This document shows positions 1,962-23,356 of a stretch of DNA of 42,091 nucleotides, in pieces. This stretch comes from an uncultured Lachnospiraceae bacterium (GTDB taxonomy: Bacteria; Bacillota; Clostridia; Lachnospirales; Lachnospiraceae): contig CANOMQ010000037.1 in the NCBI GenBank assembly GCA_947567595.1, positions 1 to 42,091 of the forward strand, given 5' to 3'. Every line of letters begins with the position of its first letter. Position 1 is the first letter of the stretch. The translations under genes and the position numbers were made by a program. The notes under the pieces are model-generated. The model saw only the letters and a list, made by a program, of their open reading frames with translations. It was not told the origin of the DNA and made no database searches.

Positions 1962-4900
1962 TTACCCGAAAACTCTGCTGACAAAAACCTTTACCTGTTT
2001 CCCGTTTTCGGTTTCAAGCGCAACGACACTTTCCGGCGTTAAGACCGTGCCAATCTGCCCAAGTGTTTCCTTACAGATGTAGTCCAGCCATTGCTTTGGC
2101 ACATCGCCCCCAAATGCAAGCAAAACTGTATCCGTAATTTCGCAGCCAATCTGCTTTCTCGCATCCTGTATATTTCTGACAAGGTCCCTTGCCAGGCCTT
2201 CCGCACGCAATTCTTCCGTAATGGTCAAATCCAAAGAAACAACGATACCGCCGCCGCACGCCACAGGCTGCCCGTCCTTTGCACGGTATGTCACAAGAAT
2301 GATATCCGCATCAAACTGCTCTTCCTGATTGCCTGTCTGCAGCATGACCCTATCCTGTGCCATCCGGAAATTCCCGCTTTTGACTGCCCTGATAATCTCC
2401 GCAATTCTATTCGGATATTTGCTGCGGATAACCTGAAAATTAGGATCATATTTTACATCTGCAATCTGTTTTGCATCCTCAAGTATCTCAATTTGTTTCA
2501 CATTCAGTTCGTCTGTAATCACATCCCTAAACGCCGCAATCACATCATTCTTTTCGCAATCAGGCAATGCCACTTTCAGATTGCGAAGCGGCTGCCTGTT
2601 CTTCACCCGGTTCCTGCTGCGAATAGAACGTGCCAGCGAAATCACCTCCTGCACGAAAGCAACATCGGCAATTAATTTCTCATTGGCAAATTTCTGTGCA
2701 ATTTCGGGCCACACTGAAAGGTGCACGGAAAATTCCCCTGTCAGTATCTGATACATTTTTTCCGAAATAATCGGAGCAGCCGGAGCAAACAGCTTCGTTG
2801 TGCAGACCAGCACATAATAAAGCGTCTGATATGCACTCTGCTTGTCTTTAGACATCCCGTTACTCCAAAACCGCCTTCTGGAACGTCTGATATACCAGTT
2901 TGTCAATCCGTCTGTCAAGGACACCATATATTCCACGTACTTATTTACCTGATAAGCGTCCATATGGCTGGTAATACGCTGCTGCGTATCGTAAAGCTTG
3001 GCAAGAATCCACTGATCCAGCTGATTGTCCGATTGCGGCTCCTCCAGCTTTTCCGGTTTGAATCCGTCGATGTTCGCATAGGAAATATAAAAGCTGCAGG
3101 CATTCCAATAGGGCAGAATGATCTGCTGGTATGCGTCCTGTATTCCCGACTCATCAAACAGCAAATCACCGATTAGCATCGCGTTCGTCTGATATAAATA
3201 AAGGCGGAATGCATCGGTTCCATACTGTCTCATCAACTGCATCGGGTCAGTATAATTCTTTGAAGATTTCGAAAGCTTTTTCCCGTCCTTTGCCAGAATG
3301 GTACCGTGAACAATACAGTTTTGAAACGCAGGTTTATCAAACAACGCGACAGACAATACATGAAGGTAATAAAACCAACACCGAATCTGCCCCGTATATT
3401 CCACAATAAAATCACTTGGAAAATGCGACTCAAACCAGTCCTTGTTCTCAAACGGATAATGCTTTTGCGCAAACGGCACCGAACCGCTTTCAAACCAACA
3501 GTCCAAAACCTCTGGAACGCGGCGCATCGTTTTGCCACAGCATTTGCACGGAAACGCCACCAAATCCATATGCTGTCTGTGAAGATTGGTCAACCGAATG
3601 CCGCTTGCCTGATAGATTTCCTCAATGCTGCCCAACACTACTCGTTCGCTGCAGCCTTCACACTCCCAAATCGGAATCGGAGTACTCCAGTATCTGTTTC
3701 TTGAAATATTCCAGTCTCTGGCATTTGCAAGCCAGTTGCCGAAACGCCCGTGTTTCACGGTTTCCGGCACCCAGTTAATTTGTTCGTTTCGCGCTGTTAA
3801 ACGCTCCTTTATTTTCCCGATATCAAAATACCACGCGTCCATCGCTTTGTAGATTAACGGTCTTTTGCAGCGCCAGCAGTGGGGATAATTGTGCTCAATG
3901 GTTCCGTCCGCTACCACCTTCCCTGCCTGATACAAAAAGCGGATTATCGCGGGATTCATTTCAATGACGTTTTTTTCCTGTGCCTTGTCATAAAAATCTT
4001 TTATTTCCTCTGTAAAATACCCTTTTTCGTCCACTGGATTGACAAGCGGAATCCGATTGTTTTTGCAGGTCCAATAATCGTCTTCCCCAAATGCGGGCGC
4101 TATATGGACAATGCCGACGCCTTCCTCTGAGCCGACATATTCCGCAGACACCACGCGAAATGCACCGTCCGCTTTTTTATCGGCAAAATAGTCAAACAGC
4201 GGCTCGTACGTTTTTCCCAACAAATCAGAGCCCTTACATTCCTTTACAATGACAGGTTCCTTTCCAAACACAGACTCAAAATTAGCCAGTGTGTTTTTAC
4301 AAGCAACATAGGCCGCATCACCGACTGCCACATAGGCGTAATCCAAATTTTCGCCGACTGCCAGACACATATTCGACGGCAGCGTCCACGGTGTTGTTGT
4401 CCATGCAAGGAAATATACCTGTTTTCCATTCATGCTTTCTTCGGTCCGAAACCGTGCAATAATCCATCGGTCCTGTCTAAGCCTTGTCGAATCGGACTCA
4501 CGCGTATCGGAAATGGATAATGATGTTTCGCAGTGCATACAGTAGGGCGTGACGCGGTAATCCCGGTAAATATAGCCTTTGTCATAGCACTGCTTAAATG
4601 CCCACATAACGCTTTCCATGAAATCCGGATTCATGGTCTTGTATGCCCCGTCGTAATCCACCCAGCGCGCCATCTGTTCTACGTATTCTTTCCATGATGC
4701 ATTGTTATTGGATACAATTTCGTAGCATTTATCGTTAAACGCGGCGATGCCAAGACGCTTTTCAATCTCGTTCTTGTCATGGATGCCCAAAAGCGCCTCG
4801 GCTTGGTTTTCAATCGGAAGTCCGTGGCAATCCCATCCCCAGACACGCGGGACACGGTATCCTCTCATGGTCCAATAGCGGGCAATCATGTCCTTGATAA

Positions 4901-5093
4901 AAGATACCAGTACCGTTCCGTGATGGGGCTTTCCGGTGGGAAACGGCGGTCCGTCATAGAATACCACTTCTTCACCGGTTCGCTGCTCTACCGATTTTTC
5001 AAAAACCTTTTCCCGTTTCCAAAACTCCAGTATTTCCTGCTGTATCCGCTCAAGCTCCGGTTTGTTTGAAAGTTCTTCATATTTTGTCTTCAT
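1962..5093 (-). CDS. ileS: isoleucyl-tRNA synthetase, long IleS2-like type
   Basis: Charges tRNA-Ile in the cytoplasm and edits misactivated valine. The 1043-aa product carries the class Ia signature PFPTGKPHHGT (HIGH-type motif at 57-60), the nucleotide-binding loop KLSKS near residue 600, a CP1 editing insertion between them, and CxxC pairs (CEGCSERV, CKCCGK) in the catalytic half. The length, KLSKS rather than KMSKS, and overall look fit the eukaryote-like IleS2 class, some members of which are naturally less sensitive to mupirocin; resistance here is inference. Two in-frame ATGs lie at 5099 and 5093. AGGAG is only 1 base from the first but 7 from the second, so I chose 5093. It is controlled by the upstream T-box. 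Confidence 0.97.
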   Translation of the reverse strand: MKTKYEELSNKPELERIQQEILEFWKREKVFEKSVEQRTGEEVVFYDGPPFPTGKPHHGTVLVSFIKDMIARYWTMRGYRVPRVWGWDCHGLPIENQAEALLGIHDKNEIEKRLGIAAFNDKCYEIVSNNNASWKEYVEQMARWVDYDGAYKTMNPDFMESVMWAFKQCYDKGYIYRDYRVTPYCMHCETSLSISDTRESDSTRLRQDRWIIARFRTEESMNGKQVYFLAWTTTPWTLPSNMCLAVGENLDYAYVAVGDAAYVACKNTLANFESVFGKEPVIVKECKGSDLLGKTYEPLFDYFADKKADGAFRVVSAEYVGSEEGVGIVHIAPAFGEDDYWTCKNNRIPLVNPVDEKGYFTEEIKDFYDKAQEKNVIEMNPAIIRFLYQAGKVVADGTIEHNYPHCWRCKRPLIYKAMDAWYFDIGKIKERLTARNEQINWVPETVKHGRFGNWLANARDWNISRNRYWSTPIPIWECEGCSERVVLGSIEEIYQASGIRLTNLHRQHMDLVAFPCKCCGKTMRRVPEVLDCWFESGSVPFAQKHYPFENKDWFESHFPSDFIVEYTGQIRCWFYYLHVLSVALFDKPAFQNCIVHGTILAKDGKKLSKSSKNYTDPMQLMRQYGTDAFRLYLYQTNAMLIGDLLFDESGIQDAYQQIILPYWNACSFYISYANIDGFKPEKLEEPQSDNQLDQWILAKLYDTQQRITSHMDAYQVNKYVEYMVSLTDGLTNWYIRRSRRRFWSNGMSKDKQSAYQTLYYVLVCTTKLFAPAAPIISEKMYQILTGEFSVHLSVWPEIAQKFANEKLIADVAFVQEVISLARSIRSRNRVKNRQPLRNLKVALPDCEKNDVIAAFRDVITDELNVKQIEILEDAKQIADVKYDPNFQVIRSKYPNRIAEIIRAVKSGNFRMAQDRVMLQTGNQEEQFDADIILVTYRAKDGQPVACGGGIVVSLDLTITEELRAEGLARDLVRNIQDARKQIGCEITDTVLLAFGGDVPKQWLDYICKETLGQIGTVLTPESVVALETENGKQVKVFVSRVFG

Positions 5094-5127
5094 CGTCATG
5101 CTCCTTTCCTGTTTGTTATGAATAATA

Positions 5128-5457: not shown

Positions 5458-6078
5458 TCATTCCTGCGATTCCATCTCAATTCCAAAATCGCCGCACTGC
5501 AAATGCTCTAAAATCGGCGCAAAAAACGGTCCCGCCTTTTTTAGTCCAAGATAAATATCAATCCGCGGAATTTTATATCCATACGAACAGTGAATCAAAT
5601 TAACACCCTGTTCATCGGCATAGACTGCCAAATCCCCATAATGATCCCATTCGCGGTCTGCAAAATCAAAGGTCGGTTTTGTACTGCCGTGAAAGATAAA
5701 TTTCCTGCCATCCGAATAGGCACGCACTTCATATACGTCATCCTTATCTTTTTTATCGTCAATTTCCACAACCGTTTCGCCTTTCATACAGCTTAAATCC
5801 GTAAACGTCCTTCCGCGCACTATGTATGTACAGTCGCGGATTCCCGCATCATAATTCCTATATCTTATTTGGAATGCTTTTTGAAATTCCAATATATTTC
5901 TTTTACTACCCGCTTGGAACCACAAAAATACTGTATTATCAATCCGCTCCACGTTCTCATCGCCTTCCAAAATCCGGACATCCTGTTCTAAAATCAATTT
6001 TTGTTGTTTGATAGCCGAGTCCTCTTGTCCCAATAGTTTATCGTTTTTAAAGAAACTATCCATTTTTTCCATAGACAT
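5458..6078 (-). CDS. hypothetical protein, last gene of the GTPase island operon
   Basis: I do not recognise this 206-aa protein. It has no signal peptide or membrane segment and looks soluble, with mixed alpha/beta character and many aromatic residues (for example DREWDHYGDLAVYADEQG). The N-terminal part is acidic and helical (KLLGQEDSAIKQQKLILEQD). The start at 6078 is chosen because AAGGGAG lies 6-7 bases upstream; the same frame extends to 6246 but those residues are out-of-phase translation of the preceding membrane-protein gene. It overlaps that gene by 85 bases. It is the promoter-distal member of the operon starting at 17493, so a role linked to the dynamin-like proteins is inference from position only. 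Confidence 0.75.
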   Translation of the reverse strand: MSMEKMDSFFKNDKLLGQEDSAIKQQKLILEQDVRILEGDENVERIDNTVFLWFQAGSKRNILEFQKAFQIRYRNYDAGIRDCTYIVRGRTFTDLSCMKGETVVEIDDKKDKDDVYEVRAYSDGRKFIFHGSTKPTFDFADREWDHYGDLAVYADEQGVNLIHCSYGYKIPRIDIYLGLKKAGPFFAPILEHLQCGDFGIEMESQE

Positions 6079-6500
6079 CCTACGCTCCCTTCTTTGGCAA
6101 ACAGCAGCAATCCCAACACAAAACTCTCCGCAATATCCCGTCCGGTAAACGGAAACTCCATATATGCCAAACACATCAGATTTGCCTGCAAAATAATTGC
6201 AATCCCCATTTTCAGCGCATAACCGACTGCAAGATATTGTGCACAATGATTAAGAAAATAATTTTCATTATTCCAATTCCACAAAATAAGAATCAACAGC
6301 ACTGCAAAAATCCCCACATTCATTGATATCATAAACCAAATTGACCGAATGCGGCTGCCCGCCGTTTTCTGCTTTTGATACAATTCGTTCCATCCCTGCC
6401 CGCACACACAGCCCAAATAAATGATGACAGCACCGCATAAAGAAGCAAACATAAACGCTTCCCTGTGTCGGTCTGTCCACTCCTTCACCCCACGAACCAT
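5994..6500 (-). CDS. small multi-pass membrane protein, unknown function
   Basis: A 168-aa hydrophobic protein with about four predicted membrane segments: near FASLCGAVIIYLGCVCG, SMNVGIFAVLLILILW, YLAVGYALKMGIAIILQA and SFVLGLLLFA. The N-terminus (MVRGVKEWTDRHRE) is charged and probably cytoplasmic. No family is recognised. The ATG at 6500 has AGGGG 5 bases upstream; a GTG two codons earlier is less well spaced. The 3' part overlaps the next gene by 85 bases in another frame, an unusually long overlap, so the true end of the protein could be affected by a frameshift, but nothing in the sequence proves one. It is probably the membrane partner of the operon. Confidence 0.68.
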   Translation of the reverse strand: MVRGVKEWTDRHREAFMFASLCGAVIIYLGCVCGQGWNELYQKQKTAGSRIRSIWFMISMNVGIFAVLLILILWNWNNENYFLNHCAQYLAVGYALKMGIAIILQANLMCLAYMEFPFTGRDIAESFVLGLLLFAKEGSVGCLWKKWIVSLKTINYWDKRTRLSNNKN

Positions 6501-6512
6501 ATTCACCCCTTT

Positions 6513-7481
6513 TCAATCTTCTATGACAAATCTATTTTCCTGTTGCAGTATTCTTTGGTATTCAATCCGTTCTTTTATATCCATATGTTTCATCTTTTCT
6601 TCATCCTCAGGAAAAAATTTGAGCTTCTGCTTCCGAAATTTTAAATTACTGTTGTCTGATTCATATTCGGTCATGTGGCACCTTAAAACATCATTCTCTA
6701 CAGGCTCCGAGTCTTTCAATAATATCTTCAAATACCCGACAACCGCGTCCATTAATGCATCTTCCAGTTCTTTCGGAAAAGCCTTCCTATCATTTTCCTG
6801 CTTATTTACATCCCACGTTTCCAAATCCTCATCCTGCACAAAAAAACAGTCCTCCAGTGTAAGACATACCCCTTTCCCGGTTAATGTCTGCGCTGCCCAC
6901 GTTATCAGTTTTTTCTTGTTTTTTGGCTTTTCCAAAAAGGAAATTCCAAGCTTTTCGACTTTTCCCGGCGCAAGCTGCGCTGCGGCTTTTGCGGCAAAGC
7001 CTGCACTGTCTGCCGCTGCTTCCTTTAACCAGCCGATTTTACTGACACCACCTACCATGTTTCCTGCAATGTCCTTGATTTTCTCCTGCACATGGGAATT
7101 ATCGGCAAGACCGCTGTAATTAATCCTGATGTCATATCCTAAAAGCGCCAGACAACCTGTCTCATCCTGCGTCAGGAATACATCGCCGACCTTTACATTC
7201 TTCCCAATCTCGTTCTTTTCCAAGTACATTTTTAATGCTTTCTGAATTTCGTCGCTATACAAATTGAGGAGTGCGCACAACAGCTTCCCTTTGTCCTGTT
7301 CTGCCATCCAGTTCATCACCCCGAGCGCCGCTGTCATGGAAGCATCTCCCATTTTTTTCAGAAACCGGACAGCCATATTCGGGTTCTCAATGGCACTGCA
7401 CTTTTTCAGCGCCATTGGAAACAGATTGGCAAAGCTTTTTTCGTAATCGATCTCGCTTATGATAATTTTTACATGAACCAT
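6513..7481 (-). CDS. hypothetical 322-aa protein of the island operon
   Basis: Not recognised. The protein is soluble and mostly helical. An Ala/Gly-rich stretch (LKEAAADSAGFAAKAAAQLAPGKVEKLG, about residues 151-178) could be an amphipathic or membrane-peripheral helix. The C-terminus is charged and possibly coiled-coil (DEEKMKHMDIKERIEYQRILQQE). The start has GGAGG 6-7 bases upstream. It ends 12 bases before the downstream membrane-protein ATG and sits within a run of same-strand genes with short gaps, so it is very likely co-transcribed with the GTPases. No enzymatic motif is visible. Confidence 0.75.
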   Translation of the reverse strand: MVHVKIIISEIDYEKSFANLFPMALKKCSAIENPNMAVRFLKKMGDASMTAALGVMNWMAEQDKGKLLCALLNLYSDEIQKALKMYLEKNEIGKNVKVGDVFLTQDETGCLALLGYDIRINYSGLADNSHVQEKIKDIAGNMVGGVSKIGWLKEAAADSAGFAAKAAAQLAPGKVEKLGISFLEKPKNKKKLITWAAQTLTGKGVCLTLEDCFFVQDEDLETWDVNKQENDRKAFPKELEDALMDAVVGYLKILLKDSEPVENDVLRCHMTEYESDNSNLKFRKQKLKFFPEDEEKMKHMDIKERIEYQRILQQENRFVIED

Positions 7482-7545
7482 TTAAATCCTCCTGCTCCTT
7501 TTACGCAGAAATCAATCCCACATGTGTCTTATCTGTCTGCCGCTG

Positions 7546-8025
7546 TTACGATATCTGCTCAAAGCAGCTGTCAAACGTAGCCCGTTTTTCCTGCGGCACC
7601 CATGTACGGAACTGTTCAAACAGCTCTTTTGTGCTTTTTGTTGTTGATACAAGCAAAACCATACAGAGCAGGTATATGCAGCCCTGCACAGCCTGACAGC
7701 CGATATACTGATATGAAGCAAACAAGGAGCTCAGCATCCATATTCTGCTCTCATCATCCACCATGACCTGAACCATAATCCAGCAGGCAGGCTTCAAATA
7801 CTCCCACAGAGGCACTTCCTCCTGCTTCCTCCCGCACCTGTTATCAACATATTCTTCCATCTCGAGAAGTCCTTTTCTCCTCGCCAAATCATGACAATGA
7901 AGCGCAATTTCCATTGCAGCAAAAATTTTATCGGGTTCTGTTGTAAAAACTTCTTTGTTATCTTCAATGATTTCCTTGCAGGTTTGTATAATATAATCTG
8001 TATTATCTGTATTCTTGCCGTTCAT
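7546..8025 (-). CDS. hypothetical protein with a MotA-like helical motif
   Basis: A 159-aa protein. The segment AALHCHDLARRKGLLEMEEYVDN (about residues 42-64) resembles the cytoplasmic helix of MotA/ExbB-type stator proteins (consensus like ARREGLLALEE), and the next part, WIMVQVMVDDESRIW, resembles the following MotA helix. A moderately hydrophobic stretch (QAVQGCIYLLCMVLLVS) lies near the C-terminus, but the four-helix channel of MotA is missing. The similarity is by eye and may be only local. The ribosome binding site AAAGGA is about 11 bases from the ATG. It sits in the operon between the NADAR gene and the 322-aa gene. Confidence 0.65.
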   Translation of the reverse strand: MNGKNTDNTDYIIQTCKEIIEDNKEVFTTEPDKIFAAMEIALHCHDLARRKGLLEMEEYVDNRCGRKQEEVPLWEYLKPACWIMVQVMVDDESRIWMLSSLFASYQYIGCQAVQGCIYLLCMVLLVSTTKSTKELFEQFRTWVPQEKRATFDSCFEQIS

Positions 8026-8045
8026 ATTGCGGTTTTTCCTTTCTT

Positions 8046-8531
8046 TTAATCGTCCCTTTGTATCCCACTGTCATCCACAACATTCAATTCATTTCTTACC
8101 CGCATCAAAATCCGCCCTAAATGATTTTCTCCCTGACCAGTACGAATATCCATTCCCCAATAGGTATCGCCCCATGTGTTTCCCTCGACAAGCTGCCGCT
8201 CTTTGGTCGCAAGAAGCTTTCCTGCCAAATGGGAATTTTGAAGGAATTTTGCCCTCACAATTTCTTCCATGAATCCAAGCTTAACACATTCCCAATCCGA
8301 ACGCAATGGCACCTGTCTGCCGCGCCGTTTTGCCTTTGCCGCCGGAAGTCCGCAAAAAAGCTGCTTGTCTTCTTCATGGATGCATTTTTGCGCCTGAAAT
8401 GCCGCTTCCGCATTCTGATACCATAATCCCTGATATTCTATTTGGCAGGGATAGAAATTGCTTAGGAAATCATACTCATCACGAAATGCATAAATGGCTG
8501 ATTCTGATATTTTACCGGTTTTCATAGTCAT
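8046..8531 (-). CDS. NADAR-domain (YbiA-like) protein
   Basis: The 161-aa product matches the NADAR fold across its whole length: FLSNFYPC near 22-29, the Glu and QAQK region near 42-49, GRQVPLRSDWECVK in the middle, and the C-terminal WGMDIRTGQGENHLGRILMRVR. Known members hydrolyse N-glycosidic bonds in riboflavin-pathway intermediates (YbiA/RibX type) or remove ADP-ribose from nucleic acid, and NADAR proteins occur as antitoxins in toxin-antitoxin and phage-conflict loci. Which reaction applies here cannot be told. No recognisable ADP-ribosyltransferase toxin is adjacent. The ribosome binding site is weak (AGGGG is about 16 bases upstream), suggesting coupling to the gene before it, whose stop is 28 bases away. 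Confidence 0.9.
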   Translation of the reverse strand: MTMKTGKISESAIYAFRDEYDFLSNFYPCQIEYQGLWYQNAEAAFQAQKCIHEEDKQLFCGLPAAKAKRRGRQVPLRSDWECVKLGFMEEIVRAKFLQNSHLAGKLLATKERQLVEGNTWGDTYWGMDIRTGQGENHLGRILMRVRNELNVVDDSGIQRDD

Positions 8532-8558
8532 ATATCTGTTTACCGCATCCCCTCTGAA

Positions 8559-9089
8559 TCATTGTTTTTCCGTCAGGATACGCTCAATGCTTAGCTTGTA
8601 TTTGTCCAATTGTTTCATATATGCCTGAATCAATTCTTTTTTTGCATCATCCGCTTTCATGTTCAGGATATTTGTTGTAATCGGGTACGCAACGGCGGCG
8701 GGGAGAATCGTACAGGCAGCACGCGCAAGCATTCCCGCCTCACTAAATCCTGATATGGCAAATCCTGCCGCTGCGCTTCCGGCGGGAATCAGATAACGCA
8801 ATGCGTTGTATTTTGAAGTATATTCTCCTTCATCCGTAAACCGCATATCCTTTAAAAGAATATCCCGTATCATGTCCGCTTTCTTTGGATACTGTGCTTC
8901 GTATTTGTCAAGCCAGCGTCCGCCCTCCGAATATTTTGAATCCCAAAAGCCGACGCAGTCTGCCAAAGTCAGGTTTAAAGCGGAATGAATCAGAATCCCC
9001 TGTTGTGCCTGTGTCATAATCTGTCCTTGTAGCTGTGTGATAAATTTTTTCCAATATTTTTCAAATTCTTCATAATATGTTTCCTGCAT
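8559..9089 (-). CDS. hypothetical protein with central membrane hairpin
   Basis: A 176-aa protein. The N-terminal half is helical (YYEEFEKYWKKFITQLQGQI). Two hydrophobic, Ala/Gly-rich stretches around residues 98-115 and 120-142 (YLIPAGSAAAGFAISGF and AACTILPAAVAYPITTNIL) could form a membrane hairpin. The tail is a charged helix. Size and layout recall small partners or membrane-insertion segments of dynamin-like proteins, but no family is recognised. AAAGGAG lies 10 bases upstream of the ATG and overlaps the stop of the 900-aa GTPase, so it is translationally coupled to that gene and probably works with it. Confidence 0.75.
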   Translation of the reverse strand: MQETYYEEFEKYWKKFITQLQGQIMTQAQQGILIHSALNLTLADCVGFWDSKYSEGGRWLDKYEAQYPKKADMIRDILLKDMRFTDEGEYTSKYNALRYLIPAGSAAAGFAISGFSEAGMLARAACTILPAAVAYPITTNILNMKADDAKKELIQAYMKQLDKYKLSIERILTEKQ

Positions 9090-9096
9090 TGCTTTC

Positions 9097-11799
9097 TTAC
9101 TCCTTTCGCCCGAAATTGTTTAGTTGCAGCATTACGGAATCCAACTGTTTTTTGTGGTTCTGTATGTTTGTCATATCTGTTTTTAGGTCGTTAATCTGCT
9201 GATTAATGGCAGAGCGGCGGTTATTTTCCATTGCAATCTGGCGGTCTACCTCGCTGCGGTAACGATTTAGATATTCATCAATCTCATCTGACAGGCAATC
9301 CCGCATTTTCCTAATGTACCGATTTACCGCAGAAATGACCTTATCCGAAATGCTGTTGTAATAGCTTGTCAACTGTGGTTTTAATTTATCTTTACATCCC
9401 TCGCAAATTTGGGCCTTAGACGCGGTTGATGGGGCTCCTGCCACCAATCCGATAAAACCCCCTACCAATGTCCCGATTCCGGGAAGGATTGCTGTACCAA
9501 TTGCTGCTCCTGCTGCCGTTTTTCCCCAAAATGCCACATTCTCACTGTTCAGTTGACCTGCGATATAATCTGCTGTTGATGCAATATCAGCAGTTTCAAT
9601 TGCAATCTTTTGCGGAAAGTTGTATTTCGCGTGCGACAAATCAAGCGGTATAATATCTAATGATTTATAAATTTGCTGAAAGGAACCATGAAAAGCCTTC
9701 ATTTCCTCCCGAAATATAATTTGTATCCGCCCGTAATAAAAGTCCGTTTGGGACATCAAATTTTCCGCCTGTATCTTACAATCACTGCTCAATGAAGAAT
9801 TAATATATTCCTTTAATGCTTCTGTAGTATCCTTATAATGATCCAAATTTCCAAGAACAGTTATACACGCAGCAGATGCGTTGGCGCTAGCACTCTGTTC
9901 AGCCTTATCTGACAGCTCTTTTGCAGCCACATCAAAACACTGCATCCGCTCCAATTTCTCCTGACGGACAAACATACTCAAATCCGCTTTCTGTGAACGG
10001 TTTAACAGTTCAAGCCTTTGCTCATAATCTTTGGAAATCTGCCCCATCTCTCCCGAAACCGACTGATAGGTATCCTCAATTAACTGCGTCAATTTTTTGG
10101 TGACTGCAAGCGTCCTCTGATTTATGGTGTGCTGAATCAACTTTTGCTCCGTCTCCAAAGACATTCCAAGCAGAGCGTCATCTACAATCACCTGTTCTAA
10201 ATCTGAATAATCCTGACTCCTGTTTTTTGTCAATTCATCCAACAGGCTTGAAATATCAGTTTTTTTGGAATCAGTCGATATATAGCAAACCGGCGAATCC
10301 GACGTGGCGAGTTTATTTACTTGCTCCCTGCAATAATCCTTTATTCTTGGAACTTCCTCCTGTGCTAATTTATCCATGTTATCAACCGCAAATATAAATT
10401 TCATATTATACCAGTCATAATAATGACGAATAAATTCCCTTTCATCACTTCCCCATAAATGTGTTGCGTTCAGAAGCATGATAATATCCGACGCTTTATC
10501 CATAGCATGTCTTATTTCGTCCCGAACAACGAAATCCGAATGCATCTCTTGAAACCAGCAGAGTGTAATTTCATATGCATTTTTAAGACACTCCCATGGA
10601 AGACCTATTGACACGACCGAAAAAACATCCAGATATTCTCCGTCTTGAGCCAATTTCTCTAACTTTTTCAGCAAATCACAAAGAGCCGTATATTGAACCT
10701 CAATTTCAGGCAAATTTACACCATTATATTTTTTTAATATATAATTTAAACTACTTGGACAACATCTAAAAAAGCCACTGTCCAGCTTTATTGGTTCATT
10801 CAATTTAATCTTCACAACAAGCTCTGTCGCATATGAAAATTTCAGAATCGGTGGTGTAAACAATCTAAAGATCTCTGGTATCCTGGCTTTTAAAAAAGCT
10901 TCTGCCAAATCTCTTTTTCCGCTTCCATACGTTCCTATGATGCAAACTTTTTTCTTCACCGCCGTCAATTTATCATCCACTAATATCTCACTTCCAAGAA
11001 CCATCGGCGACACATAAGGCAAAACAACAGCCTCCTGAAGATTCAGTTCTTCTTCCAGTTTCATTTTAACATAAGCAAGCTGCCGGTCTCGTTCCCTTGG
11101 GCGAATCGTATCTAATTTTGTAACAACAAACACACACTGCGGAAGAATGGATTCCAAATTTTTCCTTATGAAGGAAAGCATGGCGTCCGGAACGGGCTTT
11201 TCCGCGGAGGTCAGGATAATCGACAAATCCGACTGCTCCCGCAGCGCCCGCACCGTCACGTCCTCGTGCCATGCCTCGGTTACATTCGTACCCGGCGTAT
11301 CGATAATGCGGAACTCATTTTTCAGGATATCGGCAGGCAGGAACACATTTACTGCCTTTAACTGCTTTGCAACGGAAGTATCCGTTGTGTAATGCTTCAA
11401 TCCTGACTGTAATTCGGCAAAGCAAGTGAATTTCAGCATTTCAGAACGTCCGTTCAGATACTCTAACCTTATTTTATACTGCTCGTCATAATCAATGACG
11501 GTAGATGCTACGGTCGTCCCCTGCAACGCACTGGAAGCCAAAAGCTCTTTTCTAAGAAGCGCATTAATGAACGTGCTCTTTCCCGTTGAAAATTCCCCAA
11601 TCACACTAATGTTGAGTTTTTTATCGTTTTTCTTTTTGCGTATAAATTCAATTTGCTGTCGGACATCCTTCCAAGTGAAATTTTTTTCGCTGTATTTTTC
11701 CACGATCCCTTCCACAAATGACAAATGCTCGTCAATCCTGCTGAGTGTACCTAAATTGTTCAACGAAAAATAATCTTTGTCCTGTATGTTTTTATCCAT
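9097..11799 (-). CDS. dynamin-like GTPase with a second, degenerate GTPase domain (900 aa)
   Basis: The first GTPase domain has P-loop GEFSTGKST (68-76), an effector Thr region (TTVAST, 95-100), DTPG (167-170) and TKLD (227-230), as in bacterial dynamin-like proteins. A second P-loop-like motif GTYGSGKR (289-296) follows in front of about 240 residues that end with NMDK (474-477), so a second Ras-like domain seems inserted; its P-loop has Arg where Ser/Thr should bind Mg, suggesting a regulatory or inactive domain. Residues 545-755 look coiled-coil. A Gly-zipper-like hydrophobic patch near 760-790 (AAGAAIGTAILPGIGTLVGG) is the likely membrane paddle. It is third in a run of three GTPase genes, 6 bases after the previous one. 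Membrane remodelling is family inference. Confidence 0.9.
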   Translation of the reverse strand: MDKNIQDKDYFSLNNLGTLSRIDEHLSFVEGIVEKYSEKNFTWKDVRQQIEFIRKKKNDKKLNISVIGEFSTGKSTFINALLRKELLASSALQGTTVASTVIDYDEQYKIRLEYLNGRSEMLKFTCFAELQSGLKHYTTDTSVAKQLKAVNVFLPADILKNEFRIIDTPGTNVTEAWHEDVTVRALREQSDLSIILTSAEKPVPDAMLSFIRKNLESILPQCVFVVTKLDTIRPRERDRQLAYVKMKLEEELNLQEAVVLPYVSPMVLGSEILVDDKLTAVKKKVCIIGTYGSGKRDLAEAFLKARIPEIFRLFTPPILKFSYATELVVKIKLNEPIKLDSGFFRCCPSSLNYILKKYNGVNLPEIEVQYTALCDLLKKLEKLAQDGEYLDVFSVVSIGLPWECLKNAYEITLCWFQEMHSDFVVRDEIRHAMDKASDIIMLLNATHLWGSDEREFIRHYYDWYNMKFIFAVDNMDKLAQEEVPRIKDYCREQVNKLATSDSPVCYISTDSKKTDISSLLDELTKNRSQDYSDLEQVIVDDALLGMSLETEQKLIQHTINQRTLAVTKKLTQLIEDTYQSVSGEMGQISKDYEQRLELLNRSQKADLSMFVRQEKLERMQCFDVAAKELSDKAEQSASANASAACITVLGNLDHYKDTTEALKEYINSSLSSDCKIQAENLMSQTDFYYGRIQIIFREEMKAFHGSFQQIYKSLDIIPLDLSHAKYNFPQKIAIETADIASTADYIAGQLNSENVAFWGKTAAGAAIGTAILPGIGTLVGGFIGLVAGAPSTASKAQICEGCKDKLKPQLTSYYNSISDKVISAVNRYIRKMRDCLSDEIDEYLNRYRSEVDRQIAMENNRRSAINQQINDLKTDMTNIQNHKKQLDSVMLQLNNFGRKE

Positions 11800-11805
11800 A
11801 TCGTG

Positions 11806-13830
11806 TTATGCTCCTACAAGTGTAAAAATGAGAGTGTCCAGTTTCGTATTCAGTTCATGGACCTTTGCCTCACACTGCGCCAATTCTCTCCTGCGTTTTT
11901 CCACTTCCTGTTCACCCTGCTGCTTTTCCTCAATAATTGCCTGAACCTGATTCTCAATATCGTTCAATTCCTTTGATACACTGCCAATAATCTGTTTTGC
12001 GATATCTTTCATCTTTGCTTTAATTCCGTCTGCCATATCTGCCGCCTGTTTATCTGCATTTTCTGCCAATTTCCTGACTGCTTCTGTTTTAATCTGTTCC
12101 TTCAGTTTTTCTAACGATCTTGACTGCCCTTTTATGATGTTATAGAGAAATTCTCCACCTAATACAGCAACTATAAAAAATGGATTCAGCAGCCCTAACA
12201 TCCCCAAAACAATTACAGAACCAAATTCAACTGCCGTGGTTATTGCAAATTCTTTTCCAAGACCGTTCACCCCGCCCGAAAAAGCCAATGTAACATTGCC
12301 AAGTGCAAGACCTCCGGCAACACCTACAACTCTCTGCCAAAACGGAACATCGTTCGCTGTATACGCTTCTCCCGCCAATTCAACGTTAATGTCATCTATC
12401 TCCCTGAAAATCTTTGAAATATCTTTTTCGGCACCACTGAAAATGTCATTAATTTCCTCTTCTATCACCAACATAAACACATCTTTCTGCCAGTCCCTTT
12501 GTGCATCACTGACTTTTTCCTGTAAATAAGCAGAAATCTCTGCCGTAATCTGTTCCGCCTTTTTTTTGGTAGGCGCAAGACCAAAAGAAGTCTTGGGCGT
12601 AAATTCATCAATCCATACTGGTATGGATTTTATCAGATTATTAATGTTTTTCTTTATCTCCCGCTCAAGTTTCCTGCTGCTTATCTCTATACTTTCAAGC
12701 ATTGCAGACTCTTTCTGCTCTTTTTCCTTTTCTGCCATTGCAAGTCTGGGTTGAATTTTATCATATTTTCGCTTTACCTCATCCAAAGACGAATCCAAAA
12801 GCTTTCTCTCTCTCGGAATAACAACCTCCAAAGCCTCCCTGCTTAAAATCTGTCTGACCTGTTTTGCGGGAGACGCCAGCTTGACTTTTCCTTTTTCCTT
12901 TGTCAAAAACTCCGTCAGACGCTTTTCCAACGGGATAATGCCGGATTTCTCCAACAGGGAATCGTCCTTATCCAGCCGCCCGTCCAACGCGTTGATTGCA
13001 GATAAACAGAATAACTCCGGCTGCGGATAAATTTCTTTTAATTTTATTTCCGCATACTGCCGAATCTGTGGCTGCTCCCTTTGTCTGATTTGGTCAAACC
13101 TGTTCACAACAAAAAATACATCCTCAATCTCTTTATCATACAAATCATTTTTCACAAACTTCATTTCATCGCCCGCGCATATCGCATTTGCATTCAGTAC
13201 ATAAAGGATCGCATCAACCTTTTGCAGATACTCCATTGTCACCCTCGTTCTCGTCTCGTCCTCATTCAGACCGGGAGAGTCAATAACTTCAACACCGTTC
13301 TTTAAAATCTCCAATGGATAAAACAGCTCCACCTTTTCATATGGACTTTGCAGCTTCATCTGCTTTTCATCCACTCCCATCGGGATTACAACATAATCCT
13401 CTATCTCATCATATGGAATTTCAAGCGGCGGGATTTTTTGTCCCTTATACTGCTCCATATGGCGCACCGCTTTGTCCGCAAGCTTGTCGGGCAGCGGCTC
13501 GGGGAGCTTTTCCCTGAAATAAAGCATCGCCCGTTTTTCGGTTCCGTATTTTACTTCATTGATAATCGCCGTAGTGGGCAGAGCATATGCCGGCAGGATT
13601 TCCTCCCCTATCAGTGCATTGATAAAGGTAGACTTTCCATTCTTAAACGTTCCCGTAACCATAATCTTGAACGTATCACTTTGCACTTTTTTGCTAAGCT
13701 GTGCAAGCTCTTTTTCCTTTGACATGTTCAGGCGGCTCGTCACCTCCGCCGCCCCCTCAAGCACCTGCGCCAATTCCTTCTGATATTCCTGATATTTCTC
13801 CAAGCTTCCTATCACATCGTAATTTTCCAT
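11806..13830 (-). CDS. dynamin-family GTPase (674 aa)
   Basis: The GTPase domain carries P-loop GTFKNGKST (60-68), PTT switch (85-87), DSPG (184-187) and NRFD (243-246). A long helical stalk follows, interrupted by two hydrophobic segments around residues 505-570 (for example LNPFFIVAVLGGEFLYNII), expected to contact membrane. The C-terminus is a charged coiled coil (EEKQQGEQEVEKRRRELAQ). Bacterial proteins of this design tubulate or fuse membranes or protect them under stress. The ATG at 13830 has AAAGGA 8-9 bases upstream. Between two other GTPase genes with short gaps, it may hetero-oligomerise with them, as paired bacterial dynamins do; that is inference. Confidence 0.92.
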   Translation of the reverse strand: MENYDVIGSLEKYQEYQKELAQVLEGAAEVTSRLNMSKEKELAQLSKKVQSDTFKIMVTGTFKNGKSTFINALIGEEILPAYALPTTAIINEVKYGTEKRAMLYFREKLPEPLPDKLADKAVRHMEQYKGQKIPPLEIPYDEIEDYVVIPMGVDEKQMKLQSPYEKVELFYPLEILKNGVEVIDSPGLNEDETRTRVTMEYLQKVDAILYVLNANAICAGDEMKFVKNDLYDKEIEDVFFVVNRFDQIRQREQPQIRQYAEIKLKEIYPQPELFCLSAINALDGRLDKDDSLLEKSGIIPLEKRLTEFLTKEKGKVKLASPAKQVRQILSREALEVVIPRERKLLDSSLDEVKRKYDKIQPRLAMAEKEKEQKESAMLESIEISSRKLEREIKKNINNLIKSIPVWIDEFTPKTSFGLAPTKKKAEQITAEISAYLQEKVSDAQRDWQKDVFMLVIEEEINDIFSGAEKDISKIFREIDDINVELAGEAYTANDVPFWQRVVGVAGGLALGNVTLAFSGGVNGLGKEFAITTAVEFGSVIVLGMLGLLNPFFIVAVLGGEFLYNIIKGQSRSLEKLKEQIKTEAVRKLAENADKQAADMADGIKAKMKDIAKQIIGSVSKELNDIENQVQAIIEEKQQGEQEVEKRRRELAQCEAKVHELNTKLDTLIFTLVGA

Positions 13831-13866
13831 CTTCTTTTATCCTTTCCGTCTTTTTACATACAATCC

Positions 13867-15738
13867 TTACGTTGCCTGCAGCAGTGCATTAATATGCATA
13901 ATCTGTTCGTTAATTGATTTCAGGTATTTCTTTTCTTCTTCCATGCTTTCATCGCTTTTAGAGGCGTTGATGCCGTCTATTGCCGCCTGCTGCGCATCAA
14001 GCCATGCCTGCTCCGTTTTATCCGCTTCACTGATAATATTTTGATAAACTGCTTCCAAACGTTTTTCGCTGTCCTCCATAGACTGTTCAATCAATATCGG
14101 AACGCAGCGGGCAATTTCATCCCTAAGCATATTTCGCTGTTCTTCCAGCTTTCTCTTAAAAAACCGCTCCGAAAAAATCGTGGTGCCTGTTCCAATGCCC
14201 ATTGTTGCTATGATTGGCATAAATCCCATTGCGCTAAACAGGGCATACCCCGAAACACTTAAAACCGCCGAGCCGATTTTAATCGCTGTATGCTGTTTGC
14301 TAAAATCCTCAACCTCAACGCTTCCACCGATTTCAACATCCTCAAACATGTGTTTGTCAACAATTGTTTCCTTTTGGTACAGGACATGGGACTGAAACGT
14401 CTTTTCAATCGAGATGCAGTACCATCGCACATCATTCTCAATCTGCTTCGACGCCGCAGCATCAATGCTGACTGCCATATTGGTCAGTTCCATTTTCATC
14501 CTGTATGGGAAATCCTCCCGCCACCACCTTTGCAGGGCGCCTGCATGGGAAAGCTCATATTGCAGACGTTCCGTAATTTTTGCCGCATACTCGTCAATCT
14601 GTGACAGCAGCAGCTGATAGCAGTTCGTGCACCTGCGCTGCATTTGCAGATGCAAATCGCCCCATGCGAGCCTTGCTTTTGCCAACTGCTGCTTCTTTGC
14701 CGCAATCTGTTCCGCTCTCTTTTTCTCGTCGCGCTCTTCCAACAGCAGCAGCTTTTCCGTCAGCGCGGATGATGCATTTTTCAGGATATCTGCGGTCTTC
14801 CCTAAAAGCCACGTCTCAACAAGCTTTTCGCGCTCCACACAGGCAGCCCAGCCCGCAATTTCATCCATTACCTTATCCATGCCTGTGATATTCTGATAGG
14901 TATCCTCGCTCAGTTCCACCGCATAGGGAATATAAATCGGAATCTCCATATTCCAGCTTTTAAGCTTATTCGCTATGTATCCGACTACCTGTGCGCGCTC
15001 GTCTTTTGGAACCAAATCAAGCTTTGTAATGATTAGCATCAGAAACGGCATCTTTTGCGCTGTCAGACGCTCCTCTATAAACAATTTTTCACTCAGGCTC
15101 AAGGCAGCCGTCGCGCTGACTGCAATCACAGCCCCGTCACAGCCTAAAAGAGCCTCCCCGACGACCTTTGCCCTTGTCTCGCTCAAATCGCCCGCGCCCG
15201 GCGTGTCAATCAGCTCCACGTTCCAATCCCGCAGCCATTCGTTCTTTACGCCTGCAAGGACCGTTCCCTGAAAGTCCTCCCCTCCGAAATTCTGCGCAAC
15301 AAGCCCTTCCCATGACTCCTGTGATAAGGCTCTTTCCAATACTTTTTTGTTATTTTTGTCAAAAGCCATGAGCGCTTCCCTGTCATGATACCAGATCCTT
15401 GTCATTACCGCTGTTGTGGGAAGGTCTCCCTCCGGAAGAACCTCTTTGCCGAGCAGCCTGTTCAAAAATGTGCTCTTTCCTCGCGAGAACTCGCCGACAA
15501 CGGCTACCGTAAACCGTTCCCGCCCAGCGCTTTGTCTAAGCTGTTCCAAGTCTGCCGCCATTGACGGACAGCCTGCCGCATTCAGCATATTTTTGCTGTC
15601 AGCCAGTATTGTTTGGACCACGTTTCCGATTTTTAAGGGCTCCGCCTTCGTTTTTTCGTTCTCCTGATTCCCATTTCTTGGGGCATCCGCCTCTGTTCGT
15701 CTTTGAAAGAAACCTGTATCTGAAATCTTATGCGCCAT
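13867..15738 (-). CDS. dynamin-family GTPase (623 aa)
   Basis: The first of the three GTPases to be transcribed. It has P-loop GEFSRGKST (82-90), PTT switch (107-109), DTPG (178-181) and TKLD (238-241). The long helical middle is followed by a hydrophobic pair of segments near residues 485-520 (SVSGYALFSAMGFMPIIATMGIGTG), and the C-terminus is coiled-coil-like. The N-terminal 35 residues are charged and low-complexity (TEADAPRNGNQENEKTKAEP). The ATG at 15738 is preceded by AGGTGG, and by GAAAGGATAG containing the stop of the preceding gene, so translation is coupled. GTP hydrolysis and membrane action are known for the family; substrate membrane and trigger are unknown. Confidence 0.92.
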   Translation of the reverse strand: MAHKISDTGFFQRRTEADAPRNGNQENEKTKAEPLKIGNVVQTILADSKNMLNAAGCPSMAADLEQLRQSAGRERFTVAVVGEFSRGKSTFLNRLLGKEVLPEGDLPTTAVMTRIWYHDREALMAFDKNNKKVLERALSQESWEGLVAQNFGGEDFQGTVLAGVKNEWLRDWNVELIDTPGAGDLSETRAKVVGEALLGCDGAVIAVSATAALSLSEKLFIEERLTAQKMPFLMLIITKLDLVPKDERAQVVGYIANKLKSWNMEIPIYIPYAVELSEDTYQNITGMDKVMDEIAGWAACVEREKLVETWLLGKTADILKNASSALTEKLLLLEERDEKKRAEQIAAKKQQLAKARLAWGDLHLQMQRRCTNCYQLLLSQIDEYAAKITERLQYELSHAGALQRWWREDFPYRMKMELTNMAVSIDAAASKQIENDVRWYCISIEKTFQSHVLYQKETIVDKHMFEDVEIGGSVEVEDFSKQHTAIKIGSAVLSVSGYALFSAMGFMPIIATMGIGTGTTIFSERFFKRKLEEQRNMLRDEIARCVPILIEQSMEDSEKRLEAVYQNIISEADKTEQAWLDAQQAAIDGINASKSDESMEEEKKYLKSINEQIMHINALLQAT

Positions 15739-15745
15739 AATCCAC

Positions 15746-16297
15746 CTATCCTTTCACGAAATATTTGTTGTAAAAACTCTTATCAATCGTTTGGTATATT
15801 GGCAGTAAGAACGGCTCCACCAGTAATTGGAGTAATTCCGACATGCGCTTTTCATCAGAAAATCCGTATGCTCCGCCTTCAAGCAAAGCATGAATCACTT
15901 TGTCGTATTCGTTCATCAGTTCATGATACAGCCCGTCATACTCTGTTCTGTTGTATTTCTTTACCGCATCATGGCGGAAATACCCGATTGGTTTATCAAA
16001 GTCTACCGTTTCGAATTTTTCATTGTACTCAAAATCCTCAAAGCCTGTGATTTTTTCCGTGGGAAGCTCTAATGATATTGCATATTTGATTGGAAACACC
16101 AACGTCTTATCCACTTCTCCTGTTGTCTGATAGTTCAGATAAGGGAATGTAATGCATAGACTTCCGTTTTTTATCTGAAGAATCGGAAATACGGTCCGAT
16201 ATCCCATTGGAATTTTGCAATTTAAGAAAAATCCGCTGGTTTCTAAATTGTTCTTCATCTGTTCAACCATCGTTACCTGTTTCATTTTAATAACCAT
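15746..16297 (-). CDS. hypothetical protein of the GTPase island operon
   Basis: A soluble protein of about 183 aa with no recognised family. It is rich in beta-like and aromatic segments in its first half (YRTVFPILQIKNGSLCITFPY) and helical in the second (MSELLQLLVEPFLLPIYQ). The start is uncertain: AAGGGAG ends 1 base from the ATG at 16297 and about 13 bases from the ATG at 16285. A frame extending to 16375 overlaps the upstream gene and has no binding site. It ends 7 bases before the 623-aa GTPase ATG, so it may be a partner or regulator of that GTPase. Confidence 0.72.
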   Translation of the reverse strand: MVIKMKQVTMVEQMKNNLETSGFFLNCKIPMGYRTVFPILQIKNGSLCITFPYLNYQTTGEVDKTLVFPIKYAISLELPTEKITGFEDFEYNEKFETVDFDKPIGYFRHDAVKKYNRTEYDGLYHELMNEYDKVIHALLEGGAYGFSDEKRMSELLQLLVEPFLLPIYQTIDKSFYNKYFVKG

Positions 16298-16314
16298 GCT
16301 CCCTTCTATTCCTG

Positions 16315-17493
16315 TCATCCCTGATGAGCACACACGTTCATGCAGGTTATCATTTGACAATTGCCGTCTTCCCATGCATCCAAAAAGGTCTCAAGCGGCA
16401 CCAGTTCCCCGCAGCCATTCGGATTTCCGGAATCATTTAGGATAACCATCGTATCATCCGGATTCGTCCGATCAATCCCAATCACTTCAACGGCGTGGTT
16501 TGCCCCGTCGCCGGGCGTGAACAGGTCATCCTGTTCCCCATACCAAATCTCGTCCGCGTCAACCGCAACAATGATTTTCCCTCCTGCTTCCAAGCATTCC
16601 TCAATATCCGACAGATTGTTGTGAAAGCTCATATCGCTGTCAATCCCGTAGTAATCAAGCACTCTGTCCATATTTAACATGGGCGTTCCACCCTCCTCGC
16701 TGAACCAGCCGTTTTCCTGTGCAAGCTTCGCAAGCTCCTCCATATCAATCTCCGTACCTGTTAACTCCTCAATTACAAATTTCTGTGCGTACAAAGCGCA
16801 TCTGCCTGTATCTCCCTGATATTCCCATTCTTCCATAGCGCTCTCCGGTTCCCCGCAGACACGGTTCATGTCCGCATGCGCGGGATTAAAGTTTCCCAAA
16901 TCGTCCGCATAAGTGCCCGCAACCGTTTCTACGGAATGCAGCCCTGCGCCTGTCAGCTTCTCTGTTATTACCAAATCTTCATTTCCGTCACCGTCAAAAT
17001 CCTGATAGGTAACGGCAGTGTCCATGATGCCGTCGCCGTCCGAATCATGCATTTTGACGACTTCTTCAAAATTCTCGTCATAATTGCCATCGTGATAGAT
17101 TGTCTGACTGTCCAAAGTCCCGTCCTGATTGTAGTCGTATTGTTCCATAATAGTGTCAATTCTGCCGTCATGGTCTGTATCAAGCTCTGTATGATAGGTG
17201 TCCGTCACACCGTCACCATTGGAATCAATCCCAAACGTATCCATCATGCCGTCACCGTCCGCGTCAAACAGCTCTGTATCAAGAACGCCATCCGCGTCAG
17301 AATCGATCATGCCTGCATCCCAAGCTCCATCATGATTGGAGTCTAAAAACACAGCATCTGCGTTCCCGTCGCCGTCAAAATCAATCTCTGCATAATCAAC
17401 AATTCCATCGCCGTTGGAATCCATAAATTCCGCATGGGAATCTAGTACACCGTCGCCGTCAAAATCGAAATTCAGATTATCAAAATGAAACAT
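16315..17493 (-). CDS. calcium-repeat protein with C39-like papain-fold peptidase domain
   Basis: The first gene of the operon, 392 aa. Residues 10-172 contain about twelve DxDGDGxxD-type repeats (FDGDGVLDS, SNGDGIVDY, DADGDGMMDT and so on) resembling EF-hand-like/thrombospondin-3 calcium loops. Residues 215-388 resemble a Peptidase_C39-like papain fold with a candidate Cys in GRCALYAQKF (C232), His in GANHAVEVIG (H333) and Asp/Asn in ILNDSGNP (353-354). No signal peptide is visible, which is odd for a Ca-binding repeat protein; it may act in the cytosol as a Ca sensor or leave by another route. ATG 17493 has GGAGG 6 bases upstream; eight extra in-frame codons upstream have no such site. Activity is inferred. 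Confidence 0.85.
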   Translation of the reverse strand: MFHFDNLNFDFDGDGVLDSHAEFMDSNGDGIVDYAEIDFDGDGNADAVFLDSNHDGAWDAGMIDSDADGVLDTELFDADGDGMMDTFGIDSNGDGVTDTYHTELDTDHDGRIDTIMEQYDYNQDGTLDSQTIYHDGNYDENFEEVVKMHDSDGDGIMDTAVTYQDFDGDGNEDLVITEKLTGAGLHSVETVAGTYADDLGNFNPAHADMNRVCGEPESAMEEWEYQGDTGRCALYAQKFVIEELTGTEIDMEELAKLAQENGWFSEEGGTPMLNMDRVLDYYGIDSDMSFHNNLSDIEECLEAGGKIIVAVDADEIWYGEQDDLFTPGDGANHAVEVIGIDRTNPDDTMVILNDSGNPNGCGELVPLETFLDAWEDGNCQMITCMNVCAHQG

Positions 17494-17918: not shown

Positions 17919-18087
17919 TTGTTTTCTGATATTATGATGAATAAACGCTATAAATATAACGGAAAATATAATCTATACGATATGTCATTGAATGCGTTAT
18001 GATAAATAAGAACATTTATTCCTGTTTTGATGCGCTATCCTGCAGAAACAGGAGAACTATACTGTTTTCGAAATAATGAGGTCTTTG

Positions 18088-18411
18088 ATGAATGAATTAA
18101 ACCCGATCGAACGGATTCAGGAGCTTTGCAGGGAACGCGGCTGGAGCTATTACCACCTTGCAAAAGCTTCCGGAATCACTTATTCCACGTTAAACACCAT
18201 GATAAACAAGCAAAACATGCCCTCGCTGCCCACGCTCTATAAAATCTGCCGCGGCTTTGGCATTCCCATTACGGACTTTTTCGAGCCGGACAGGAGCTCA
18301 AACGGACTGACAGACGAACAGGCACAGTGCCTCTCTCTTTTTACGGCGCTTACCAATGAGGATAAGCAGTTGGTTTTGGCTTATATTAAAGGGCTTTCGA
18401 AGAAATTATAG
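18088..18411 (+). CDS. XRE-family transcriptional regulator
   Basis: A 107-aa protein with an N-terminal Cro/C1-type helix-turn-helix (ERIQELCRERGWSYYHLAKASGITYSTLNTMINKQ, about residues 6-40) and a short C-terminal helix (QCLSLFTALTNEDKQLVLAYIKGLSKKL) probably for dimerisation. It is the only island gene on the plus strand. ATG 18088 is chosen because GAGG lies 7 bases upstream; an ATG at 18076 overlaps that site. The leader contains a CCTGTTT/AAACAGG hairpin (18020-18053) and a diverged GTTTTCGAAAT dyad (18064-18074). It likely binds the TATAACG-N6-CGTTATA operators on both sides (inference). A promoter at its 3' end points antisense through it. Confidence 0.88.
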   Translation: MNELNPIERIQELCRERGWSYYHLAKASGITYSTLNTMINKQNMPSLPTLYKICRGFGIPITDFFEPDRSSNGLTDEQAQCLSLFTALTNEDKQLVLAYIKGLSKKL

Positions 18412-19514: not shown

Positions 19515-19609
19515 ATGCACATCTCCTTTCATTTTGATTCAATAATTTGCATCTACAGGTTCAATTATTTCACACTTCTATATTCTTTATTATTTACAGG
19601 AACTCCCAT

Positions 19610-21523: not shown

Positions 21524-21542
21524 TCCGTTTTCTCTCCTTTTG

Positions 21543-23279: not shown

Positions 23280-23302
23280 CTGATTTCCTCCTTGCTGCTA
23301 CC

Positions 23303-23336: not shown

Positions 23337-23356
23337 TTTTTCTTTATGATTGCATT

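Follow-up and report, generated by a model that had tools for sequence, protein, structure and literature searches.

Why should a bacterium keep three dynamin-like GTPases in a single row of genes, and what is the place of a calcium-repeat, peptidase-like protein beside them? The question is posed by an uncultured Lachnospiraceae bacterium with a genome of 4.16 Mb (assembly GCA_947567595.1), in which eleven open reading frames, termed A to K here, run leftward over positions 5458-17493 of contig CANOMQ010000037.1; the 42,091 nucleotides that were analysed are referred to as the window. A preliminary description had recognised an eleven-gene operon with three consecutive dynamins, a NADAR protein and a calcium-repeat/C39-like protein, and had considered a role in defence or envelope stress. 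A to K do form an operon-like run, but the conserved unit within it comprises only six genes, A to F, which encode the C39-like protein, a small protein (B), three dynamin-like GTPases (DLP1 to DLP3) and a second small protein (F). The reading preferred here, with a probability of about 0.4, is that among these six products the three dynamins form a membrane assembly that answers to stress and is gated by the peptidase, whose sensor parts are exchangeable.

The three dynamin-like GTPases

The dynamins are encoded on the reverse strand by C (DLP1, 13867-15738, 623 amino acids), D (DLP2, 11806-13830, 674 amino acids) and E (DLP3, 9097-11799, 900 amino acids). That each is a complete dynamin-like GTPase, as first proposed, is borne out by the Pfam Dynamin_N model (cut-off 27), which they match with 75.8, 95.8 and 89.3 bits, respectively, and by intact G1, G3 and G4 motifs, which read GEFSRGKS, DTPG and TKLD in DLP1, GTFKNGKS, DSPG and NRFD in DLP2, and GEFSTGKS, DTPG and TKLD in DLP3. 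When the whole source genome is searched with the same model they are the only strong matches, followed by four weak ones (E 6.6e-5 to 2.1e-4). A simple scan places a hydrophobic segment in each protein (residues 492-510 of DLP1, 530-558 of DLP2 and 770-788 of DLP3). The bacterial helical domain of Pfam is matched by DLP2 only (48.4 bits), and the nearest solved relative of this protein is BDLP1 of Nostoc (PDB 2j68, E 2.1e-42, aligned residues 32-650).

Among aligned relatives the P-loop is intact in all 36 rows of DLP2, in 33 of 35 rows of DLP3 and in 31 of 32 rows of DLP1, and DxPG is present in 34/36, 35/36 and 22/32 rows, respectively. The losses across the DLP1 rows make it likely that DLP1 has turned into a pseudo-GTPase in several loci. 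DLP3 is distinguished by an insert of about 270 residues after its G domain (approximate limits 10192-10998, reverse strand), absent from four aligned relatives, that constitutes a second, degenerate G domain of dynamin type. It contains a P-loop (GTYGSGKR, residue 289), hence GxxxxGK, as well as NxxD, with no DxPG seen, and it matches the DLP2 profile at E 4.4e-11 and the DLP3 profile at 9.1e-8. Further GTPase-like regions lie near or are fused to DLP3 in five other loci (L026, L031, L048, L041 and L018; loci and genomes used for comparison are given under working numbers beginning with L and G). Each of these is closer to the G domain of DLP2 than to the insert, so common descent with the insert is not established.

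Separate lineages with a shared inheritance

Are the three dynamins recent copies of one another, or do they represent distinct lineages that travel together? A quick maximum-likelihood tree was made of 114 proteins assigned beforehand to families by profile, with branches judged by the Shimodaira-Hasegawa-like approximate likelihood ratio test (SH-aLRT) rather than by bootstrap. The best protein per family and locus was kept, one of two overlapping G273 loci was dropped per family, and proteins below 500 amino acids were left out of the tree and those below 450 residues out of the distance test that accompanied it. DLP2 (35 rows) and DLP3 (34 rows) each form one side of a branch with an SH-aLRT value of 99, and 27 of the 32 DLP1 rows group together, with five elsewhere. 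Over the 28 loci with all three proteins, the distances are correlated with r of 0.908 (DLP1/DLP2), 0.865 (DLP1/DLP3) and 0.871 (DLP2/DLP3), and none of 2000 permutations reaches the observed values. Species history alone lifts such coefficients, so that they indicate joint inheritance and not contact. By six-frame profile search, 20 of these 28 loci contain a C39-like protein, 13 contain B and 8 contain F; many of the rows concerned had also gone into the profiles.

Recurrence and gene order

The core is rare. Within a survey of 299 genomes of the same family, DLP2 is matched at E<=1e-20 in six, the source genome included, and in a phylum sample of 398 genomes B is found in one, which is the source genome itself. 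The nearest relative, G273, carries A-B-DLP1-DLP2-DLP3-F in that order with a LytTR-like regulator before A; identity is 51-63% for A, B, DLP1, DLP2 and F, and for DLP3 59% over the first part and 39% over the remainder. None of G to K is matched within the 34 kb examined there.

A wider scan took one genome per species and the DLP2 alignment as query, and its best 80 loci, which give no measure of prevalence, are labelled Lachnospiraceae, other Clostridia, Bacteroidales, Acidobacteria, Cyanobacteria, Deltaproteobacteria, Myxococcales, Planctomycetota, Streptomyces and others. All three dynamins are present by best profile in 27 of these 80. Gene order, flanks and motifs were compared on selected loci, protein clustering covered 49 selected sources and the three-dynamin profile scan covered all collected loci. 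Contig edges cut off several loci, so that missing C39, B or F genes are partly out of view, and the frames of L023, L026 and L027 are broken or overlapped and were left as such.

Gut Clostridia and Bacteroidales have the genes in the order C39-B-DLP1-DLP2-DLP3, often followed by F. The order becomes DLP3-C39-DLP1-DLP2 in L032 and L038 (Acidobacteria) and L047 (a cyanobacterium), and C39-DLP3-DLP1-DLP2 in L040 (Prevotella), L054 (Acidobacteriota) and L056 (a cyanobacterium). The planctomycete L059 has the C39-like protein and the dynamins, with a weak DLP1 assignment that falls outside the DLP1 group, and in the actinobacterial L050 and L073 DLP1 to DLP3 are found by tblastn. Sets with the C39-like protein thus occur in Bacillota, Bacteroidota, Acidobacteria, Cyanobacteria and Planctomycetes; triads without it occur in Streptomyces and in delta-proteobacterial groups, where none was seen in L045, L046, L052 and L060. 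One locus labelled Prevotellaceae (L024) is Clostridia-like in sequence and may represent contamination. Other genomes repeat this set in the same order, so the neighbourhood is not one of chance, and the scattering of homologues by which the preliminary description would have been undone is not what is found. Among plasmid and phage records, three stretches gave dynamin-type matches only, without A, B or F.

Other dynamin arrangements came to light alongside. A second recurring set, in L019 (6849-13845) and L020 (6828-13462), consists of three dynamin-like genes with one gene between two of them; the intervening gene of L020 is an M48 metallopeptidase by Pfam and its counterpart in L019 is 44% identical. 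The dynamin sets with an M48 peptidase in G258 and G223 were considered as the same system as A to F and set aside, as they fall outside the DLP clades in the tree. A HerA/FtsK-type ATPase stands beside dynamins in L016 (10000-13371), L018 (5993-9280), L074 and L042, a possible subtype; in L016 and L018 the C39-like protein is also adjacent.

The C39-like protein

A (16315-17493, reverse strand) contains 11 DxDxDG-like calcium-type motifs followed by a C39-like domain. Taken alone, the protein of the window matches no C39 model in Pfam or NCBIfam. The domain becomes visible through its relatives, which straddle the Peptidase_C39_2 cut-off of 24 (L018 at 24.2 and L040 at 29.4 above it, L016 at 19.8 and L056 at 17.5 below), and through the family profile, which matches a solved C39-like peptidase (PDB 3erv, E 7.8e-5). 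Together with the motif count, this sustains the earlier assignment as a calcium-repeat/C39-like protein. The catalytic residues of C39-like peptidases are Gln, Cys, His and Asp, and the corresponding positions of A (Gln234, Cys240, His341 and Asp362) are near-invariant across 20 aligned rows: Gln, Cys and Asp are each present in 18, His in 19, and all four are aligned in 17. In L016 the Gln is missing from the aligned column, but one is found in the adjacent position.

The part that precedes the peptidase domain is different in kind among lineages, to judge from the aligned proteins. Calcium-type motifs number 4 to 33 in 11 of the 20 rows and 0-1 in the other nine. The repeat number itself varies strongly, with 33 motifs in the C39-like protein of L044 (5253-7634) and 4 in that of L048. 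A zf-HC2 zinc finger, which is an anti-sigma domain, lies inside the C39-like protein of the cyanobacterial L056. Regulator genes also stand near the core: genes just upstream of the L048 and L059 loci have sigma-70 region matches, the upstream genes of L040 and L056 cluster with the sigma-70-type gene of L048, and a LytTR match lies beside the core in L018. A simple hydropathy scan found no hydrophobic segment in A, which should therefore be cytosolic, in a compartment where calcium is normally low.

The small core proteins

B (15746-16297, reverse strand) has relatives in 15 of the searched sources, and its predicted structure is an alpha/beta fold (pLDDT 90.7). F (8559-9089, reverse strand), a core member in gut Clostridia and Bacteroidales with relatives in nine searched sources, is modelled as helical (pLDDT 74.6), with a Gly/Ala-rich stretch at low confidence. 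Fold searches gave no PDB match at E<=0.001 for either, and no known family was found for them. A paddle-like role for F would be a guess from the model. For B, an Hsp70 lid domain was considered and rejected: profile matches to C-terminal chains of Hsp70 were weak (best E 0.057), no Hsp70 is among the 50 best matches of the fold search, and hhalign to an Hsp70-like gene piece of L022, a poor partner as the gene is broken there, gave a probability of 1.2.

The local genes and the transcript

The remainder of the run, likewise on the reverse strand, consists of G (8046-8531), a NADAR protein, followed by the unrecognised H (7546-8025, one hydrophobic segment), I (6513-7481), J (5994-6506, two hydrophobic segments) and K (5458-6078, overlapping J). 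The NADAR domain that had been noted in the operon is clear (Pfam NADAR 93.2 bits, cut-off 35.1). It is of YbiA/RibX type, passing that NCBIfam model with 84 bits (cut-off 73.7) and failing DS32_2_antiphage with 51.6 bits (cut-off 240), so that its value as a sign of defence is discounted. None of B, F, H, I, J and K reaches a curated Pfam cut-off; none of B, F, H, I and J reaches an NCBIfam cut-off or has a PADLOC match at E<=1, and a PHROGs search of seven proteins returned nothing informative.

Do G to K belong with the core? A tblastn search at 1e-4 of the best 80 scan loci finds one match for I (L022) and none for NADAR, H, J or K. Near five relatives within the family, only NADAR and I are matched among G to K, both in L020, a locus with dynamins of a type other than DLP1 to DLP3. 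The idea of a single system of eleven genes, implied by the preliminary description, was consequently dropped: A to F recur and G to K essentially do not. By this comparison G to K are local accessories and NADAR is not part of the core.

As to the layout itself, the closely spaced leftward run was confirmed by measurement, with nine gaps (17, 7, 36, 6, 7, 27, 20, 64 and 6 bases) and one overlap. These spacings follow from starts of our choosing, namely ATG 17493 for A and ATG 16297 for B; the overlap of J and K is 253 bases for the full K frame, which extends to 6246, and 85 if K begins at ATG 6078, the start also adopted here. A single transcript would fit the promoter-like site found at 17620-17592 and the terminator-like stem found at 5161-5131, although such sites occur near shuffle level in the window (promoter-like 47 against 39.1, sd (standard deviation) 5.2; terminator-like 16 against 15.8, sd 4.6). 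An Rfam scan of the window gave one T-box only, distant from the operon.

Genomic surroundings

Upstream of A lies an XRE-type regulator on the forward strand (18076-18411, HTH_26 47.1 bits), which may regulate the operon, and beyond it a signalling module on the reverse strand (20744-24475) composed of an unnamed protein (23357-24475), a Ser/Thr kinase (21543-23279) and a lipoprotein-like gene (20744-21523). In the distant relative G250, relatives of the regulator (62-64% identical) and of the three module genes stand beside dynamins, a C39-like protein and a HerA-type ATPase. The module was considered as part of the core and rejected since, despite adjoining dynamins here and in G250, its three genes also stand without core relatives in stretches of three genomes of the same family, G105, G130 and G194 (L106, L107 and L108); it is best described, on this comparison, as an associated, separable module. 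Between the regulator and the module, 18525-19532 (reverse strand) encodes a putative secreted or anchored CxxC-rich protein that resembles the zinc-binding part of DnaJ, with no Pfam match above cut-off.

The operon block adjoins leuCD. The same-genus genome G196 shares the right flank (80-81% DNA identity over window positions 24748-28255 and 36883-41254) and has other genes past leuC, with no core, accessory or kinase-module match in that 20 kb; DLP2 and the lipoprotein-like gene were not found in this one same-genus genome searched. The block is therefore lineage-specific by this comparison. The isoleucyl-tRNA synthetase gene at 1962-5099 (reverse strand) has only short DNA matches in G196; it may be divergent or acquired, and the lineage-specific block may extend further to the left.

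The preliminary description had suggested looking for linkage to phage-defence islands, and this proved weak. Ten chosen flanking proteins were searched: in L028 the gene directly after F encodes an IetA-like ATPase, in L048 F is followed by a weak viperin-like gene, repeat-protein models are matched in L035, an LmuB-like match in L041 is probably SbcC, and four of the ten have no match at 1e-5. Ordinary metabolic or housekeeping genes flank the core in several loci. Elsewhere, a caspase-domain (Peptidase_C14) protein lies downstream of the cyanobacterial triad of L035 (15087-17216), and on a cyanobacterial plasmid (L115, CP150887.1, 8881-11031) a lone dynamin gene adjoins cas1/cas2 and CRISPR genes of RAMP type.

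What might the core do?

The peptidase-gated assembly proposed at the outset builds on the gene set and its order, the separate lineages and their joint inheritance, the conserved motifs, the hydrophobic segments of the dynamins and the regulator genes near several loci; hetero-assembly, action on a membrane, peptidase activity and its target, a calcium trigger and the outcome are what we infer from them. A to F, conserved and patchily spread, would be located in the cytoplasm and at the inner membrane face, and the three dynamins would jointly assemble on the cytoplasmic membrane, which they would reshape by tethering, fusing or sealing. The C39-like peptidase would act as the gate and its N-terminal part as a swappable sensor or regulator, consisting of calcium-type repeats in gut Bacillota and Bacteroidota and, in one cyanobacterium, of a zinc finger of anti-sigma type. 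If antibiotic, envelope stress or phage damages the membrane, calcium might enter or a regulator might be freed, and the activated peptidase could then cleave a partner or itself, thereby releasing dynamin assembly or its transcription. Repair would be a likelier outcome than cell death. A bolder and improbable version is a calcium-gated repair or immune machine, with the sensor swapped between lineages, in which calcium entering at a breach folds the repeats of a cytosolic papain-fold peptidase and so frees a dynamin coat of three obligate components to close the breach or prevent the release of phage. Such a machine would be analogous, not homologous, to the calpain-assisted repair of animal cells.

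Several observations weigh against the proposal as a whole. DxPG is missing in 10 of 32 DLP1 rows. L054 is without all four active-site residues and L018 without Cys and Asp. The C39-like protein was not seen in 8 of the 28 triad loci, where it is either dispensable or encoded beyond the examined stretch, and with 0-1 calcium-type motifs in nine of 20 rows calcium can be no general trigger. F has no segment above the hydropathy threshold, and the co-inheritance in part mirrors species history.

What, then, of other explanations? An antiphage system, in which the peptidase part would sense infection and the dynamins would postpone lysis or break the membrane open, as put forward for Eleos/Dynamins or observed with DynA, is possible yet doubtful. 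The core is rare, patchy, spread over phyla and absent from G196, the IetA-like and viperin-like genes follow F, and DLP2 and DLP3 resemble the LeoA/LeoBC models of PADLOC (82.3 and 70 bits, and 56.4 and 50.1 bits, respectively, for models with no cut-off attached). In the available part of PMC8844932, DynA gives Bacillus subtilis phage resistance. However, most of the ten flanking proteins are unconvincing as defence genes, the flanks are ordinary in several loci, DLP2 reaches 28.9 bits against the NCBIfam LeoA cut-off of 325, and no relative of B was found in viral contigs. A role in membrane remodelling during growth, division or development, with the peptidase as a processing enzyme, is unlikely: DynA and DynB of Streptomyces function in division according to the part of PMC6104087 available, and neighbouring sigma factors and LytTR would suit development equally well, but so rare a distribution and the absence from close relatives fit a basic role poorly. 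Least credible, and very improbable, is that all eleven genes act together with NADAR and the rest of G to K as effectors on ADP-ribosylated targets. The common strand and the 27-base gap after F speak for it, as do, in L022, a downstream ADP-ribosylglycohydrolase-Macro protein and, in L020, a nucleotidyltransferase-NADAR protein. Against this, NADAR goes unmatched in the best 80 loci, it is of YbiA/RibX type, and the L020 dynamins are of another type and accompanied by an M48 peptidase.

Relation to known systems and significance

Animal calpains join a calcium-binding part to a papain-fold cysteine peptidase. The likeness to A is one of domain logic only, since A belongs to the C39-like family, and no kinship is claimed. 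Eleos is a two-dynamin set for which we know of no peptidase, and DLP2 does not reach the NCBIfam LeoA cut-off. What is shared with Eleos and LeoA-LeoBC (PADLOC, and Dynamins in DefenseFinder) is the dynamin-like GTPase, with the PADLOC resemblance of DLP2 and DLP3 given above for models that have no cut-off attached; Eleos is described as dynamin-like in the available part of PMC11811056. Bacterial dynamins are presented as operon pairs in the accessible portions of PMC6104087 and PMC4159319. With BDLP1 of Nostoc (2j68), Cj-DLP1/2 and DynA/DynB the present proteins share the dynamin G domain, and DLP2 in addition the helical part by its Pfam match and its alignment to BDLP1; the adjacent genes recall such pairs (PMC6104087, in the same portion); here, in contrast, there are three lineages, the C39-like protein, B and F, and an extra degenerate G domain in DLP3. 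The DO-GTPase/peptidase-cascade conflict systems likewise combine paralogous GTPases with regulators, chaperones or peptidases, but in the part of PMC7159879 available they use another GTPase family with a GAP1 partner. The word dynamin is absent from the main text of PMC8195603, PMC11237479 and PMC7159879.

The preliminary description had not recognised a named system, and none was recognised in the libraries and open-access literature searched, where no dynamin triad with a peptidase came to light. Multi-dynamin operons are thus known, and the three-lineage set with a peptidase, B and F is undescribed as far as these open-access searches go. A jointly inherited set of three dynamin lineages, accompanied by a C39-like peptidase in five phyla, suggests that the dynamins work as a hetero-trimeric machine controlled by proteolysis. 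If this is true, the regulation of a bacterial dynamin would become directly testable, with B and F, for which no family was found, named as its partners.

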